A stretch of 59,244 bases of DNA, taken from Planctomicrobium piriforme (GTDB taxonomy: Bacteria; Planctomycetota; Planctomycetia; Planctomycetales; Planctomycetaceae). A program made the position numbers and the translations under genes. Below the pieces are notes generated by a model that was given only the letters and a program-made list of their open reading frames with translations, did no database searches and was not told where the DNA came from. Each line of letters begins with the position of its first letter. Position 1 is the first letter of the stretch. The stretch lies in assembly GCA_945860955.1 (NCBI GenBank), contig CAMATH010000043.1, positions 1-59,244 of the forward strand, in the 5' to 3' direction. Of this stretch, positions 965 through 7,053 are shown in pieces.

Positions 965-1231
965 GTAGCCCGCATTTTCCAAATGCGCGGCCCGCTGTTC
1001 GTGCGGCGGTCTCGAGACGTACTGGGGGCAGCCGTTGACATTGGGCGAGATGTTCGGCTTTGTCTTTGCCGTCGTCATTGCACCTGCCCTCCTCATCGCC
1101 ATCCTCTTCGACGAATTCGCTGTCGGCCTGTTCGACCCACGCGGCAGCGCCCGGCGTCTTGTGCAGGGCCAAAGTGCCTGCTGGGTGCATCGGGCGCACA
1201 TCGGGGCCGGCATCGGGACGATTCCGCCTAC
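965..1231 (+). repeat. GTAG-headed palindromic repeat, copy A
   Basis: Begins GTAGCCCGCATTTTCCAAAT, ends CCGCCTAC. The head is GTAG followed by an imperfect hairpin (GCATTT/AAATGC core). The tail read on the minus strand is GTAG followed by a second imperfect hairpin. The internal spacer is about 30 bases longer than in copies B-D. It is directly joined to copy B; the junction reads CTACGTAG. Confidence 0.85.
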
Positions 1232-1468
1232 GTAGCCCGCATTTTCTAAATGCGCGGCCCGATGTGCGTGCGGTGGCCGAAAAACGTACTGGGGGCAGCC
1301 GTCGACGTTGGCTGAGAGATTTGGTTTCGTCGGTGGTGAAATCGGTGTCGGGTTCGTTGTTGACCCGATTGCCCGAAACGGCAGCGCGCGGCGTCCTGTG
1401 CATGGCCATAGTGCCTGCTGGGTTCATCGGGCGACCATTGGGGCCGGCATCGGGACGATACCGCCTAC
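1232..1468 (+). repeat. GTAG-headed palindromic repeat, copy B
   Basis: 237 bp. The head hairpin is the clean form, CGCATTT-TCT-AAATGCG. The tail carries spaced CATCGGG-like blocks and ends CCGCCTAC, abutting copy C head to tail. It is similar to copies A, C and D along its whole length. Confidence 0.88.
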
Positions 1469-1703
1469 GTAGCCCGCATTTTCTAAATGCGCGGTCCGCT
1501 GTGCGTGCGGTGGTCGAGAGACGTACTGGGGGCAGCCATCGACGTTGGGCGAGATGTTTGTCTTTGCCAGTGGTGAAATCGGTGTCGAATTCGTTGTCGA
1601 CCGGTTCGACCGACGCGGCAGCGCTCGGGCGTCCTGTGCGGGGCCATAGTGCCCGTTGGGTTCATCGGACGCACATCGGGGCCGGCTCGCCACGAACCGA
1701 CTA
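1469..1703 (+). repeat. GTAG-headed palindromic repeat, copy C
   Basis: About 235 bp with the same head hairpin. The last 20 bases diverge (GCTCGCCACGAACCGACTAC) but still end in CTAC. The stop codon of the minus-strand transposase at 1701-2381 lies inside this terminal GTAG (read on the minus strand), so the gene directly abuts the repeat. Confidence 0.85.
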
Positions 1704-2381
1704 CGAGTCGAGTATTCGCGACTTTGTTTCCTCGTCGCCATATCGGTAATGCAAGAACTGCGTTCCTGTCAGTCCCGCCTCCCTGGGGTTGTTCGCGATG
1801 TACCGCTGAATCGCCTCGAACTGATCGAGGCTGCGCACCATGTGGTCAAAACTTTCTTCCTGCCAGAATCGTCCGGAGTTCCGTCGCCTTTGGTTGATTT
1901 CTCGCGCTGTGTACCGCTTCCAGGACGTACACTGTTTTTCAATATCGGTTTCACCCAATAGGCAAACCAACAGATGGACGTGATTGGGCATCACCACGAA
2001 GTCACCCATCCGGTACCGCTGATCGTCAAAGTGCAAGAGCGATTTCGCCACCAGTAGTGAAAATTCACGGTCTTTGAACAGGCACTCGCCGTAGCCTCGG
2101 TCGAGGTACTGCAGGAACTGGGCACTGAACCGATCGTGAAATTCGCGTTGATGGTTGCGAGGCAGAGACTCCAGCGCCGACTTCCAATCCGCCGTGGAGG
2201 GATTAATGCCGTGTCGATTTAGCCAGTCGGCTCGCTTGCGATGCCAAAACGCCCCGACCGTTTTGGGAATCGAGTCGTTGGTTCGAATGGTCACGAAGTA
2301 GGTGACGCCCGGCTGGTACCAGTGGGGGAGGTTGCCAGCGGTGACCCGATAATCGGATTGTGGGTCGAACAGTTCGAACAT
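1701..2381 (-). CDS. REP-associated tyrosine transposase (RAYT, Y1/HUH family)
   Basis: A 226-residue single-domain protein of the TnpA_REP/Y1 transposase family, which nicks single-stranded palindromic REP DNA next to a GTAG tetranucleotide. Visible hallmarks are the metal-binding HUH motif in VMPNHVHLLV (His134 and His136) and the nucleophile Tyr194 in the YIANNP motif near the C-terminus. An upstream in-frame extension to 2537 would read through the partial repeat at 2471-2569, so I chose the ATG at 2381, which has GGAG about 10 bases before it. The stop TAG is part of the minus-strand GTAG that starts the inverted hairpin of copy C. The gene looks intact. It most likely domesticates or mobilises the surrounding repeats; such genes are usually single-copy and vertically inherited. 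Confidence 0.92.
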   Translation of the reverse strand: MFELFDPQSDYRVTAGNLPHWYQPGVTYFVTIRTNDSIPKTVGAFWHRKRADWLNRHGINPSTADWKSALESLPRNHQREFHDRFSAQFLQYLDRGYGECLFKDREFSLLVAKSLLHFDDQRYRMGDFVVMPNHVHLLVCLLGETDIEKQCTSWKRYTAREINQRRRNSGRFWQEESFDHMVRSLDQFEAIQRYIANNPREAGLTGTQFLHYRYGDEETKSRILDS

Positions 2382-2470
2382 CGCAGGGGTCTCCGCGTAT
2401 CTCCGATTGGGAGTGTATACGTTTGGGCACGGGAACGCAATGGCACTGGCTTTTCGTGTTGATTCTGTTT

Positions 2471-2569
2471 GGTGCGAGGCGGCAGCGCGCGGCGTCCAAT
2501 GCAGGGCCATAGTCCCTGCTGGGTTCATCGAACGCACATCGGGGCCGGCATCGGGACGATGCCGCCTAC
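2471..2569 (+). repeat. Partial GTAG-type repeat (3' half only)
   Basis: Starts near GGCGGCAGCGCGCGGCGT and matches the last 100 bases of copies A-D, ending GCCGCCTAC. The 5' half, including the head hairpin, is missing. It lies about 90 bases upstream of the transposase start codon and joins copy D directly. Confidence 0.8.
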
Positions 2570-2807
2570 GTAGCCCGCATTTTCTAAATGCGCGGCCCGC
2601 TGTGCGTGCGGCGGTCGAGACGCGGACTGGGGGCAGCCATCGACATTGGGCGAGAGATTTGTCTTTGCCGGTGGTGAAATCGGTGTCGGGTTCGTTGTTG
2701 CCCCGGTTTGCCCTAAGCGGCAGCGCGCAATGTCTTGTGCATGGCCATAGTGCCTGCTGGGTTCATCGGGCGCACAACGGGGCCGGCATCGGGACGATTC
2801 CGCCTAC
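2570..2807 (+). repeat. GTAG-headed palindromic repeat, copy D
   Basis: 238 bp with a complete head hairpin and a tail ending CCGCCTAC. The end of the repeat is one base from the stop codon (2809-2811) of the minus-strand kinase gene, so its minus-strand hairpin would be the first structure in the kinase mRNA after the stop. Confidence 0.88.
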
Positions 2808-2808
2808 G

Positions 2809-5800
2809 TTAATCCGCGACCGTTCGCACGACTCTTATGCCCGTACTCTGATTCCGCACGATGTGCGGTATCGCATCGCGTTCTCCAGAGTTCAGGCTGA
2901 GGTAACTCCAGAAAAAGTAGCCTCCGCGAACGATCCTCCGCAATTCGTTGTGCCGCGCCGGTCCTGTGGGATCGACCACTTCAGGATCGGCGCTATAATG
3001 CTCCTCCCAATCCTGGCACCATTCCGTCACGTTTCCGTGAACATCGAACAATCCCCATGAGTTGGGCAACCTGGTGCCGCACGGTTCCGTGTGGTCCGTT
3101 CCAAATACCGCGAATCGGCCGGCGATCCGTTGGTCGTCGCCGAAAGAAAACCGTGTCGTCGTACCGGCACGACAGGCGAATTCCCACTCGGCCTCGGTTG
3201 GCAGGCGATAACCGTCCGACTCAGGAATCAACTTCCATTCTTCGAATTCGCCCGAAGGGCTCTGCCAGATTCGACCGGTTCTCGCGTAACACGGAGTCAG
3301 TCCATCCAGGCGGCTGAGCCAGTTGCAGAACATGGCGGCGTCGTTCCAGTTAACGTGTTCCGCGGGATGGTCCAGCGGCGGCAGAGTTTTTAGCTCTTCG
3401 CCGGGCCAGTTTTTCGGCTTGTCCCCTTCCGGGAAATTCGAGTCGCTGAGAAAGCGTTGAAACAGCCCCAGCGACAATTCTCGATCGGCCATCAAGAACG
3501 ATTTCGTAAGAGTCACCTTCTGTACAGGCCTGCGATCGGGAGGAGGCATCGAATCGCGACGCAGAAAGCTCCCCCTGGAAATCTTCAGAAAGGTCATTCC
3601 GGCCTGATTGACGAACCACTGTCGTCCGGAATCTGGCTGTTTCGACGGATTGATGGTCGGTAATTCGAGCTGCCAGTTCCGAAGTGTCCAACCTGTGGCA
3701 CTGTGCATCGTCTTGTCGAGATCCTGCTGAAACCAATCGCCCAGTACGGGATTCCAGGCCTGTTTCGCTTCCTCGGTCAATTGCTCGGGCGGAGTTCCCC
3801 CGAGCCCCAGACAGACTCCCGACCGCAGATCGAGATCGGTCAGAGTTCGTGCCAGGCCGGCCAGCTTTACGGCGTCTCCCTGCCATGTCGCCAGCAGCTC
3901 GACGAAGACGTTGCGCTGAACGGGATCGGGGCGGCTGCGACACATTTCCTCGGCCAGTGAGGCGTCACCCAAGTACAGCGCCACCAGGGCCATCCGCTGT
4001 TTCAGCCGCCAGTCCTGATTCGATTCGCACGCCTTGGCGGATTCGTGAATCGCCGCCAGTGCGGTGTTCCGAGAGTGTTCCAGCGCGATGACCAGATTCG
4101 CGACATCGGGAGCGGGAATTTTGGGAATTTCTCCCACCAGATAATCCGTTTCCACCGTGCCGAACGACGCCATCGCGAACGCCGCCGCCAACTTCTGCCC
4201 TTCCCGACTCTTGTTGAACCGTGTTCGCAACTCGTCAGCCAGAGGCCGACGGGGAAATCCGGCCAGGTCGTCGATCGCGCGGGGAACCACATTTCCTCGG
4301 CTGTTTTCCATCGCCTGCATCGCGGTCTGCATTCGTTCTAGCAGGTTGCGATGCGCGGCCGATGCCAGCATTTGCTGAAAGAAAAATCCGATCACCAAAA
4401 CCGCGGCCAACACGCTCCCCCAGCGAAAAATGTGGTTCCGGTCGGCAGCCCGCATCAATCGCCGCTCGGCACCCGACCAGTTCTTGCGCTTGGTCAGCAG
4501 CCGAATCGAGCCCCATTCCCACAACGAAGGGAGGTGCCTCGATTCCTGCCGGCTGTTCCGGACGTCGGAAAGGTCGGCCAGTCTCAATTCGGCCCGTCCC
4601 CGGCGGGTTTCGCGCTGCTTGCGCGTCAGCCAATCGCGCAGTGAGGGAACTAAGTAGTCGTGAGTGAGCTGGTAGTATTTCTCTCGGGGTTCGAGCGGTG
4701 CGACGGTCGACCCGCCCGCCAAATCCTCGTGTTCGGTCGGCGTGATCAGCCGGATTTCGGAATCCAACACGCGAATCAGCTCGTCGAAATTCTGCGTGCG
4801 GTCGACATAGCCGGACGCCGCCAGCAGTTCCAGGTACGACCGCATCCGGCCCTTGATGTTCGCCCCCGATTCGGGAAGCAGCGACTTGAGGACTCCCCGC
4901 GCGCCGTGTTGATGCCGGCGATGTTTGGGATTGGCCGTCCGGGCGCAAAATGTCTCTTCCAGAAACGTGGCTCCGATTCCCTGGGTGCCCCCGACCTCAG
5001 AGAGCGAATCGCGTGTCCACGGCCGGCCTTTCATCATCTCTGCGAACAGGGCCAGACGCACGCAGACGATCTTCCCCTCTTCAGCCAAGCCGCCAATCGC
5101 CTGTTTTACGAAGTCCCTCTGTTCCCTGGACTTTTCTTTGACGTTTTCCGGCAGCCGGCCGAACGCCCGCCCAAACGCATTCAAGATCTTGCGGGCGTGA
5201 TCGAGATCGAACAAGTCCACCAGCGCGATGTTGCGACCGGGAACCAGGTCAACTTCCAGTTCGCACATGAACCGGCTGACCGCCAACCAGAAGTCGTCGC
5301 GGACGAGGACGATGCACTGCACATTGCCACCGTCGCATTGCCGCAACGCCTGGACGAGTTCTGTGCCGTGCGACTCCTTGTGGGTATGCAGCCACTGCTC
5401 GAACTGATCGAGCACAATCAGCAGTTTCTTCCCGGCGGGCAGACCTGACCCCTGACGCAACCTGGCCAGCGTCTCTTTCAGATCGAGATCGGTCGGCAGG
5501 TCCGGGCAGTGTTTTCGTAACCCCGCCAGCAGCCGCGTTTCGGTGTCGCCGAGAGTCGACTCCACGTAAACCGAGACCACGTGCGTCGAAAGTCGGGGGA
5601 GCAGCCCGGCCTGGATCAGCGATGACTTGCCACAACCCGACGGGCCGTAGATCAGTCCCACGGAAAACGTCTTGTCGACGTCGGTTTCCTCAATCCGCTT
5701 TGTCCAAAATTGGACGCTGTCGGGGAGCCCCGTCCGGTCACGCGGACCGGGCAACAGCTCCAGGAAGAAATCGGCGTCGTGTTCGTCAAACGCCCGCAGT

Positions 5801-7053
5801 CCCCGGGGAATGATCGCCGTCTGCGGACTCTGGGAAACGTCGACGCTCGTTTTCGAACCGATGCTCGACGCGGTGGGAGGCAGGTCGGACGAGAATCGCG
5901 AATTGGAATCGGGCGACGGAGCGGGCGTTGTCTGTCCCGAGGCCAGAAAATACCGCAGATCGTCGGCCATGTCGCGGGCTGTCGTATAGCGCTCGTTGGC
6001 GCGCGGTGCCAGGGCTTTCAGACAGATCCGCTCCAGTTCCCGCGGCATACGATCGTCGATCTGTCGCGGCGGTTTCGGTTCCTGCGTCGCGAGTCGTTCC
6101 AGCAGCTTCGCCTGCGTCGAACCCGAAAACGTGCGACGTCCCACCAGCAACTCGTAGAAGACCACACCCAGGCTGTAAACGTCGCTCCGGCCGTCGACGC
6201 GATGCCCTTCCCCGCGCGCCTGTTCGGGGCTCATATATTGCGGAGTTCCCGCGTAACGGGGTCCGCTTCCGAGATCGTGGTCACGCAGAGCCAGGCCAAA
6301 GTCGACAAGAAACGGCTGATCGCGCCGGTCGATGAGAATGTTCCCCGGTTTCACGTCGCGATGCACGAGTCCCTGACGATGGGCGTAGTGCAGCGCATCG
6401 GCGACCGTCGCCACCAGTTCGGCGGAGACTCTGTGCGACAAACGGGATTTCTTAATTCTCTCGGCCAGATTGAGACCGTCGACGTATTTGGAAACGATGT
6501 AGACGGGGAATTCGTCGGAACTGCCGACGTCGTAGACGGAAACCACATGGGGGTGATCGAGATTCGCCACCATGCGGGCTTCGGAAAGGTACCGCTGGGC
6601 GTCGCCCGGTCGGTAGACCAGCGTCGCATGCGGAACCTTGATCGCCACCGGGCGAGTCAACTCATCGTCATGCGCCAGATAGACTCGTCCAAACCCGCCT
6701 GTGCCGAGGAGTTTCTCGACCCGATATCTGCCGATCCGGCCCGGCGGATCGCTGGTTGGGTTTTCCTTGAGGATCTCGTGGAACACCTGGTGGATATCGT
6801 CGCTGCGATCCGGAAAACGAACCAGGTATTCGGCGATGGAGGGGGACTGTTTATTGGCCGACCGCAACTCGACTTCAATCGCCAGCAGTTCGCGAAACAG
6901 AGGATCGCGCATCGCGCTGGAAGCGGCGGCGATGTGATCCTCGATACGGGGCGGTGTGTCACTGCGCAGCGCCTGCTCGAACGCTTCGCATGCTGCGTGG
7001 ACGACCTGGAGTTCGGCGTCGGAAAGGACGTTAAACCGCCGGGTTTCATCCAC
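2809..7053 (-). CDS. Ser/Thr kinase - STAND NTPase - TM - FGE-like fusion protein
   Basis: A 1414-residue multidomain signalling protein. Residues 1-100 are helical. A Hanks-type kinase follows at 110-370, with Gly-rich loop GTGGFG (117-122), Lys139 in VAIKV, HRDVKPGN (231-238), DFG (251-253) and SPEQ (275-278), so it appears catalytically competent. A P-loop NTPase of nSTAND type spans about 425-815, with Walker A GPSGCGKSS (470-478) and Walker B LLIVLDQFEQ (544-553). A single transmembrane helix lies at about 877-898, and the C-terminal 230 residues form a formylglycine-generating-enzyme/SUMF1-like fold (RLPTEAEWEFACRAG, GNVTEWCQDW, IVRGG). The expected topology is kinase and NTPase in the cytoplasm, sensor-like FGE domain outside. 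The ATG overlaps the ECF sigma gene by 8 bases, indicating translational coupling. Confidence 0.92.
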   Translation of the reverse strand: MDETRRFNVLSDAELQVVHAACEAFEQALRSDTPPRIEDHIAAASSAMRDPLFRELLAIEVELRSANKQSPSIAEYLVRFPDRSDDIHQVFHEILKENPTSDPPGRIGRYRVEKLLGTGGFGRVYLAHDDELTRPVAIKVPHATLVYRPGDAQRYLSEARMVANLDHPHVVSVYDVGSSDEFPVYIVSKYVDGLNLAERIKKSRLSHRVSAELVATVADALHYAHRQGLVHRDVKPGNILIDRRDQPFLVDFGLALRDHDLGSGPRYAGTPQYMSPEQARGEGHRVDGRSDVYSLGVVFYELLVGRRTFSGSTQAKLLERLATQEPKPPRQIDDRMPRELERICLKALAPRANERYTTARDMADDLRYFLASGQTTPAPSPDSNSRFSSDLPPTASSIGSKTSVDVSQSPQTAIIPRGLRAFDEHDADFFLELLPGPRDRTGLPDSVQFWTKRIEETDVDKTFSVGLIYGPSGCGKSSLIQAGLLPRLSTHVVSVYVESTLGDTETRLLAGLRKHCPDLPTDLDLKETLARLRQGSGLPAGKKLLIVLDQFEQWLHTHKESHGTELVQALRQCDGGNVQCIVLVRDDFWLAVSRFMCELEVDLVPGRNIALVDLFDLDHARKILNAFGRAFGRLPENVKEKSREQRDFVKQAIGGLAEEGKIVCVRLALFAEMMKGRPWTRDSLSEVGGTQGIGATFLEETFCARTANPKHRRHQHGARGVLKSLLPESGANIKGRMRSYLELLAASGYVDRTQNFDELIRVLDSEIRLITPTEHEDLAGGSTVAPLEPREKYYQLTHDYLVPSLRDWLTRKQRETRRGRAELRLADLSDVRNSRQESRHLPSLWEWGSIRLLTKRKNWSGAERRLMRAADRNHIFRWGSVLAAVLVIGFFFQQMLASAAHRNLLERMQTAMQAMENSRGNVVPRAIDDLAGFPRRPLADELRTRFNKSREGQKLAAAFAMASFGTVETDYLVGEIPKIPAPDVANLVIALEHSRNTALAAIHESAKACESNQDWRLKQRMALVALYLGDASLAEEMCRSRPDPVQRNVFVELLATWQGDAVKLAGLARTLTDLDLRSGVCLGLGGTPPEQLTEEAKQAWNPVLGDWFQQDLDKTMHSATGWTLRNWQLELPTINPSKQPDSGRQWFVNQAGMTFLKISRGSFLRRDSMPPPDRRPVQKVTLTKSFLMADRELSLGLFQRFLSDSNFPEGDKPKNWPGEELKTLPPLDHPAEHVNWNDAAMFCNWLSRLDGLTPCYARTGRIWQSPSGEFEEWKLIPESDGYRLPTEAEWEFACRAGTTTRFSFGDDQRIAGRFAVFGTDHTEPCGTRLPNSWGLFDVHGNVTEWCQDWEEHYSADPEVVDPTGPARHNELRRIVRGGYFFWSYLSLNSGERDAIPHIVRNQSTGIRVVRTVAD

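Follow-up and report, generated by a model that had tools for sequence, protein, structure and literature searches.

Repetitive extragenic palindromic (REP) sequences of the GTAG class have been published for Planctomycetes (Rhodopirellula baltica), as have REPtrons, tandem clusters of REPINs (units of two inverted REPs) beside genes for the REP-associated tyrosine transposase (RAYT, or TnpA-REP), and REP doublets with conserved spacers (PMC3733652; PMC3116915). The subject of this study was an array of such repeats with an embedded RAYT gene in Planctomicrobium piriforme, at positions 965 to 2807 of contig CAMATH010000043.1 (C43; assembly GCA_945860955.1), whose 59,244 nt are called the window below. 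A sequence-only reading of the window had described the array as a planctomycete REP/RAYT system with a mobile unit of about 237 bp. We regard it as quite probable that the locus is a REPtron in which a single-copy RAYT gene stands in a cluster of its own substrates, and that these substrates are long REPINs with two unlike ends.

The REPINs of Pseudomonas fluorescens SBW25 (PMC3116915) are likewise inverted REP doublets that form tandem clusters, with a REPIN cluster beside each RAYT gene; those units can fold in one strand. The SBW25 GI doublet has the same REP at both ends and 71 bp between conserved 16-mers, whereas the units described here are 214–341 bp long, have unlike stems, and carry an extra box. 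The GTAG REP families and REPtrons that include R. baltica (PMC3733652) share the GTAG foot, the short stem, the TY-type loop, head-head dimers with conserved spacers, and RAYT genes overlapped by REPs. Their spacers are mostly 20–100 bp, a published size that the P. piriforme units exceed, and seams limited to 0 or 38 bp are not among the features described in the portion covered. The Escherichia coli REPtron with Y and Z2 REPs (PMC6006769) also has REPINs of two different REPs beside one RAYT gene; however, its units are short, and both REPs are subfamilies of one sequence, unlike the planctomycete stems. In biochemical work on TnpA-REP proteins of groups 2 and 3, which are not the group of the window RAYT, single-stranded REPs were recognized through GTAG and the stem-loop and cut at CT or CA (PMC8266576). 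No REPIN longer than 200 bp was found in literature titles and the starts of abstracts, a scope that leaves out supplements, most figures, and subscription papers. The unusual parts of the present system are its unit size, the shared box, and the seams of 0 or 38 bp.

The four full units and one half unit described earlier are present at 965–2807 (Table 1), with the RAYT gene placed between unit 3 and the half unit. Nine GTAG hairpins occur in the array, eight of them with a TCT, TCC, or TCA loop. The 54,744 bases of the window outside the array contain six loosely defined GTAG hairpins, none with such a loop, and the array is therefore beyond chance. Junctions reading CTACGTAG had been described; they were found at three seams, and unit 3 instead ends with CTAC followed by GAGTC. 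Only units 1 and 4 have the tail stem GGAATCG-TCC-CGATGCC unchanged, with GGTATCG in unit 2, GGCATCG in the half unit, and a different stem in unit 3. The array units differ from one another by 12–21%, and identity is 0.964 in the heads, 0.796 in the tails, and 0.809 in the middles.

The RAYT gene has an intact reading frame and intact motifs, and the residues and stop codon named in the first reading proved correct: the protein carries the HUH motif NHVH (H134, H136) and a single catalytic-type Tyr (Y194), the features by which a RAYT is recognized, and the stop codon lies inside a GTAG. The Pfam Y1_Tnp match was over its cut-off (E 2.5e-8), and searches of PHROGs and, by sequence, of the PDB gave no match. 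An AlphaFold model (pLDDT 86.9) had as its top PDB match 4ER8, which shows the RAYT of E. coli together with a REP hairpin (E 4.1e-6; TM 0.47 by query and 0.64 by target), which was also the sole match under 0.001. In an alignment of 35 sequences (the window protein and 34 relatives), H134, H136, W173, Q174, D179, R183, and Y194 were invariant. The spacing of W173, Q174, D179, and R183 equals that of E. coli W94, Q95, E100, and R104, and the E. coli residues W94, Q95, E/D100, and R104 lie in the GTAG-recognition region (PMC6006769); matched by spacing, the four window residues are putative GTAG contacts. By its motifs the protein appears to sit between TnpA-REP subclasses 2.7 and 2.4 (PMC6006769). 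It resembles subclass 2.7 in NHVH, WQ, the long N-terminus, and D in place of E100, and subclass 2.4 in the lower REP stem of three G-C pairs. The Tyr motif YIANNP is closer to that of 2.4 (YIxNNP) than to that of 2.7, and at 58 residues the HUH-Tyr distance is at odds with subclass 2.4 (median 88).

The draft genome of P. piriforme (G000) comprises 8.4 Mb in 282 contigs, has a completeness of 98.9%, and holds one copy of this RAYT family, with two weak matches besides (E 0.002–0.007). It has 24 matches to the NCBIfam model for RAYTs, NF047646. No matching GTAG REP was found close to the nine other matches, and one more on contig C67 (L033), whose flanks were scanned; 13 weaker matches fell outside that scan. 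REPs stand on both sides of the window RAYT gene. The half unit and the gene could in principle be a degraded autonomous IS200/IS605-like transposon, with the units as internally deleted copies, and it fits this explanation that a tail half precedes the gene and a GTAG end follows it immediately. An IS200/IS605 element would have its transposase between left and right ends and occur in several copies; here the gene is single and no head half adjoins its other side, and several related RAYTs stand between complete REPINs (for example L177, L188, and L190). We consider this origin very improbable.

The genome search proposed with the first reading found dispersed copies. With up to three mismatches allowed, the head hairpin had 44 matches genome-wide, four of them in the array. 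A pattern for a sister tail had 47 matches, nine of which were actually heads of another type (GTAGCCCGCACTC...) at three mismatches. Reversed-pattern controls for both hairpins gave no match in the 8.4-Mb genome. With a GTAG foot and a conserved hairpin in many copies, these are REPs of the GTAG class. A strict-rule search for ends in 54 stretches of the genome around hits and in the window stretch (55 in total) gave 106 ends. Removal of three ends of another REP left 103 distinct ends, with the consensus GTA[GCC or GGC]-7-bp stem-TCT/TCC/TCA loop-stem-one bulged base-[GGC or GCC]. The hairpins are kept with compensatory changes, in agreement with the claim that they are conserved among copies. 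Two stem pairs varied as GC (52) versus CG (49) and as CG (51) versus UA (50); because the rule that chose the ends required six of seven upper pairs, the share of pairing in the upper stem is partly built in. The lower stem, which was absent from that rule, also covaried (CG 50 versus GC 44); these counts are of sequences, not of events. Among the 44 matches of the head pattern, which is blind to pairing, compensated variants (CAC/GTG) stand beside a small number of uncompensated ones.

A second stem-loop beside each hairpin had been suspected by eye and was rejected, because the consensus fold of the heads did not support it; only the box described below survived. Two more GTAG REP types were seen in the genome, GTAG-GACGGGTC-TCT and GTAG-CGACGACGC-TCC/TCT (L061 3769–3860; L063, L076, L083; L045, L093, L110); the first occurs in one place as a symmetric pair of 92 bp. 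At L110 the GTAG-CGACGACGC-TCC hairpin lies about 1.4 kb from the NCBIfam match of that locus. A double-footed REP of 29 bp (L091 1959–1987), bearing GTAG on one side and CTAC on the opposite side, directly abuts a tail REP.

The 55 stretches contained 23 outward-facing pairs, which as two inverted REPs are REPINs; 22 of these were 214–341 bp long and one was 60 bp. Type A units (about 215 bp) combine a CGCAYTY head with a GGCACTC-like tail, and units of types B and C (about 230–340 bp) have a GTCTTTC tail together with a CGCACTC or CGCATTT head. The proposed 237-bp mobile unit is thus right in being longer than the REPINs beside related RAYTs, but not in its length, which among dispersed units is about 215 or 230–340 bp. 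One of the units, 341 bp long, appears to be of type A, its middle interrupted by a different repeat of about 126 bp. The internal spacer, said to be conserved, is not conserved as a whole: identity among ten dispersed type A units was 0.92 over the first 28 columns, 0.93 over the last 28, and 0.80 in the middle, with the minimum near the center. Neighboring ends facing inward (n = 20) were separated by 0 bp in eight cases (three in the window), 38 bp in ten, 39 bp in one, and 21 bp in one, and all eight zero-gap junctions read CTACGTAG; six neighbors were head to tail.

In a set of 29 units (25 of P. piriforme and four of its congener G002, the 60-bp pair omitted), the stems at the two ends were unequal in 29 of 29, agreeing on average at 3.5 of 7 positions. 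This inequality bears on whether the units of about 215 bp are miniature elements of a classical double-strand transposase, with the RAYT as a bystander. Such elements have equal terminal inverted repeats, which these units lack. Their sharp ends, many copies, and shared inverted CCCGMTGTGCG box would suit that origin, yet no constant direct repeat was seen (by eye only) in the listed flanks, and GTAG with a bulged hairpin and TCY loop is a known type of RAYT substrate and the hairpin class found around the closest RAYTs. We judge it highly unlikely.

Several further arrangements were observed around the dispersed units. A 38/39-bp linker (GTTGTTTCGGTCGCTGCACGACGGACGATTCCCGCAAC-like) lies between facing tails and heads at L050, L063, L064, L069–L071, L073, L082, L085, L086, and L090, and at the same loci some units seem to contain, in their middle, a further repeat with TATACTCC...GAGGTATA ends. 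Around type B/C units (L051, L055, L062, L088, L089, L092, L094), GTAG and the 5' arm are often missing from neighboring ends, which start with CTAC-RTT (or similar), loop, and 3' arm, as though the unit had taken the place of half hairpins that faced each other in two other units. At L093, L096, L098, and L136, tail REPs lie within a larger repeat (>450 bp, about 90% identical) found on several contigs of G000 and G002.

Directly behind the hairpin, at a nearly fixed distance, stands an 11-nt box, CCCGMTGTGCG. With up to two mismatches allowed, the box was found in 49 of the 50 distinct heads, in 32 of the 33 GGCA/AGCA tails, in 10 of 14 GTC tails, and in two of three array tails, compared with neither of two ends of another REP and 65 of 5,000 stretches drawn at random from the same loci. 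It occurred in 21 of 22 ends of G002 but in only 1 of 132 distinct ends from other relatives. Because the box stands at both ends in opposite orientation, its two copies can pair in one strand. When folded with DNA parameters, a box-to-box stem was predicted with a probability above 0.5 for 18 of 29 units on the top strand and 19 of 29 on the bottom, and for two of four and none of four, respectively, in the window array; GTAG-CTAC pairing above 0.5 was predicted for 7 of 29 and 10 of 29 units on the two strands. The box partners showed no covariation beyond shuffles (29 units; 850 of 2000 shuffles reached the observed value). Box-box pairing was dropped as a claim, in view of the lack of excess over shuffled partners and the weak predicted stem in the window array; since the partners do not covary, a protein-binding motif would explain the box equally well.

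Box pairing formed part of a more specific explanation, that the units are a distinct class of single-strand transposon moved by the RAYT. They would have true left and right ends made of two non-matching REPs, the mismatch would keep each REP folded on itself, identical boxes pairing across the unit would hold the ends together, and cuts at C[A/T]^AC next to GTAG and at CT^AC within the far CTAC would give the CAAC|GTAG...CTAC|GTTG flanks of isolated units as well as the CTACGTAG seams. Were this so, each insertion would supply the target for a later one. The explanation is weakened by the unequal pairs of E. coli and by their frequency in relatives, and we hold it to be doubtful. In loci of related RAYTs, 24 outward pairs of 52–146 bp were found and 12 of the 24 had unequal stems; the idea that unequal ends distinguish this genus was accordingly rejected.

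A scan of named genomes found 56 RAYT relatives, mostly in Planctomycetota and also in Poribacteria, Verrucomicrobia, Acidobacteria, and others, which together with the intact motifs bears out the assignment to a planctomycete REP/RAYT system. RAYTs with at least 54% identity were found at 18 loci (L177–L193, L204); 16 of the 18 had GTAG hairpins within 500 bp, mostly GTAG-NN-GGCAYNN-TCC. Hairpins of the form GTAG-NN-SGCAY-TCY surround the closest RAYTs. By a loose rule, 36 of all 56 relatives had at least one perfect GTAG or GTGG hairpin. Paired GTAG hairpins flanked the RAYT gene in five of the 11 loci L034–L044 (L034, L035, L036, L038, L040) and not in the other six. The stop codon lay within GTAG in 11 of 40 genes with a stop found, some of the 11 being followed only by a weak hairpin (the count includes the window gene; 40 of the 56 relatives were given, one without a stop in reach). 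Across the P. piriforme genome and 39 relatives, six genomes had the hairpin pattern (a single match in G026) and ten had a member of the RAYT family at E up to 1e-6; reversed-pattern controls in the same 40 genomes gave none. The link between hairpin and RAYT thus holds for the closest RAYTs (G011, G039) and is broken in two drafts (G002, G009).

Short REPINs had palindromic flanks of at least 6 bp in 8 of 40 pairs (36 from G039, three from G009, one from G011), and insertion of REP dimers into palindromes has been published for other species (PMC3733652). In G039, REPINs of 56–66 bp with palindromic flanks of 6–13 bp were seen at L238, L246, L248, L251, L257, L259, L263, and L272, and by eye the triplet ahead of GTAG tracks the REP subtype (TAA, AGT, AAA). 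Two RAYT relatives, L200 (Rhodopirellula solitaria) and L215, have an in-frame stop and are possibly decayed genes.

Table 1. Features of the repeat array, in window coordinates.
Feature	Position	Strand
Unit 1 (267 bp), GTAG-head hairpin to tail hairpin-CTAC	965–1231	+
Unit 1 head REP, GTA[GCC]-7 bp-TCC loop-7 bp-bulge-[GGC]	965–991	+
Box CCCGMTGTGCG behind unit 1 head hairpin, one mismatch	991–1001	+
Box counterpart directly inside unit 1 tail hairpin	1205–1195	-
Unit 1 tail REP, stem GGAATCG-TCC-CGATGCC	1205–1231	-
Unit 2 (237 bp)	1232–1468	+
Unit 3 (236 bp), deviant tail stem GGTTCG-TGG-CGAGCC	1469–1704	+
RAYT (TnpA-REP) gene, 226 aa; stop TAG (1703–1701) within GTAG of unit 3 tail	1701–2381	-
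Half unit, tail half only, upstream of RAYT gene	~2479–2569	+
Unit 4 (238 bp)	2570–2807	+
Further head REPs, TCT loops	1232–1258, 1469–1495, 2570–2596	+
Ends of other tail REPs	1468, 1704 (different stem), 2569, 2807	
Zero-gap seams CTACGTAG	1228–1235, 1465–1472, 2566–2573	

In the mechanism that we propose, the unit would act as a single strand. The unit strand begins with GTAG and the bulged head hairpin, and the opposite strand with GTAG and the different tail hairpin, a box standing behind each. The RAYT would recognize GTAG and the TCY-loop hairpin, cut beside GTAG/CTAC through Tyr194 with its HUH metal site, and rejoin the ends, so that units would be excised, carried elsewhere, or joined end to end. 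A cut on the CTAC side of one unit joined to a cut on the GTAG side of another would produce the CTACGTAG seams. We infer the cutting, its strand, and this order of steps; the window RAYT likely moves the units and may serve the dispersed copies as well.

The flanks are informative about the place of cutting. Upstream of GTAG at 89 non-abutting ends, A was found at −3 in 81 and at −2 in 76 (AAC in 53, AAT in 15), and isolated type A units thus read mostly CAAC|GTAG...CTAC|GTTG. Cuts at CA^AC and CT^AC would give both these flanks and the CTACGTAG seam. The seams of some relatives (L183, L186, L040) read CTAC-N-GTAG, which a cut after CTAC would explain equally well or better, so that the cut may lie at either place.

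Shared loci of P. piriforme and G002 are roughly 85–94% identical, and their units and seams differ. We compared 16 locus pairs (15 P. piriforme loci) by BLAST, 13 of them base by base and one of these in part, and searched for the flanks of 14 P. piriforme loci in three congeners, none of which matched the window locus. At one shared locus P. piriforme was longer by about 390 bp, equal to a unit, a linker, and part of the next unit. At the orthologous pair L141 (G002) and L095, 43 nt stand between tail and head where P. piriforme reads CTACGTAG.

Several observations weigh against the REPtron reading. A clean empty site, expected to read CAACGTTG (or AANGTT), was not found among the 16 locus pairs, though differences abound, and mobility is therefore argued indirectly. 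The breakpoint between L095 and L141 is ambiguous by a shared ACGT, and the change may have gone in either direction. The array's own tail hairpin has four genome matches, all within the array; the dispersed copies are sisters of about 215 bp with another tail, and the 237-bp form with this tail is private to the array; the array tails are kept no better than the middles, chiefly through unit 3. The NF047646 match scored 73.2 bits (E 1.9e-20), below the curated cut-off of 80. Two close RAYTs, L184 and L185 from one metagenome-assembled genome, have no GTAG hairpin within 500 bases, and G017 has a 46% identical RAYT with another stem. Occurrence of the repeat in genomes without a RAYT had been named in advance as counting against such a system, and it was seen in part: the congener G002 and the family member G009 carry the hairpin class, and in neither was a RAYT of this family detected (best E 0.023 and 0.0028, respectively); both are drafts (90% and 93% complete). 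RAYT loss has been reported for E. coli strains (PMC3733652).

Another explanation is that the system is a relic, in which the units are old, immobile REPINs, tandem duplication and recombination of the usual kind enlarged the array, and the RAYT persists as a leftover or for other reasons. We take this to be a real possibility, though with less than an even chance. The divergence among array units, their private tails, the half unit, the lack of a detectable RAYT of this family in G002, and the many dispersed ends that by eye are single or truncated all agree with it. It accounts poorly for heads that stayed nearly identical while the middles drifted, for the intact RAYT frame and motifs, and for the differences in units and seams between two species so similar at shared loci.

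Unit 4 ends 1 bp ahead of the stop codon (TAA, 2811–2809) of a neighboring minus-strand gene. This gene (2809–7053) encodes 1,414 aa; judged by eye, the product is a protein kinase whose C-terminal domain resembles sulfatase-modifying enzymes. The position directly behind a stop codon and the strong stems are what would be expected if the units were kept as transcription or RNA elements, such as terminators or RNA stabilizers, roles that have been reported for REPs (PMC6006769) and are compatible with mobility. This reading leaves the GTAG feet on both strands and the link to the RAYT unexplained, and positions 900–2900 of the window had no Rfam match at E up to 0.5; we think it unlikely.

The mechanism by which REPs spread is described as unsolved (PMC8266576). 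The REPtron reading adds a REP/RAYT system in a phylum that receives only brief mention in the literature covered. The distinguishable ends and exact seams of the P. piriforme units, set beside the short and often symmetric units of close relatives, make a natural test series that bears on which parts a RAYT requires and where it cuts.

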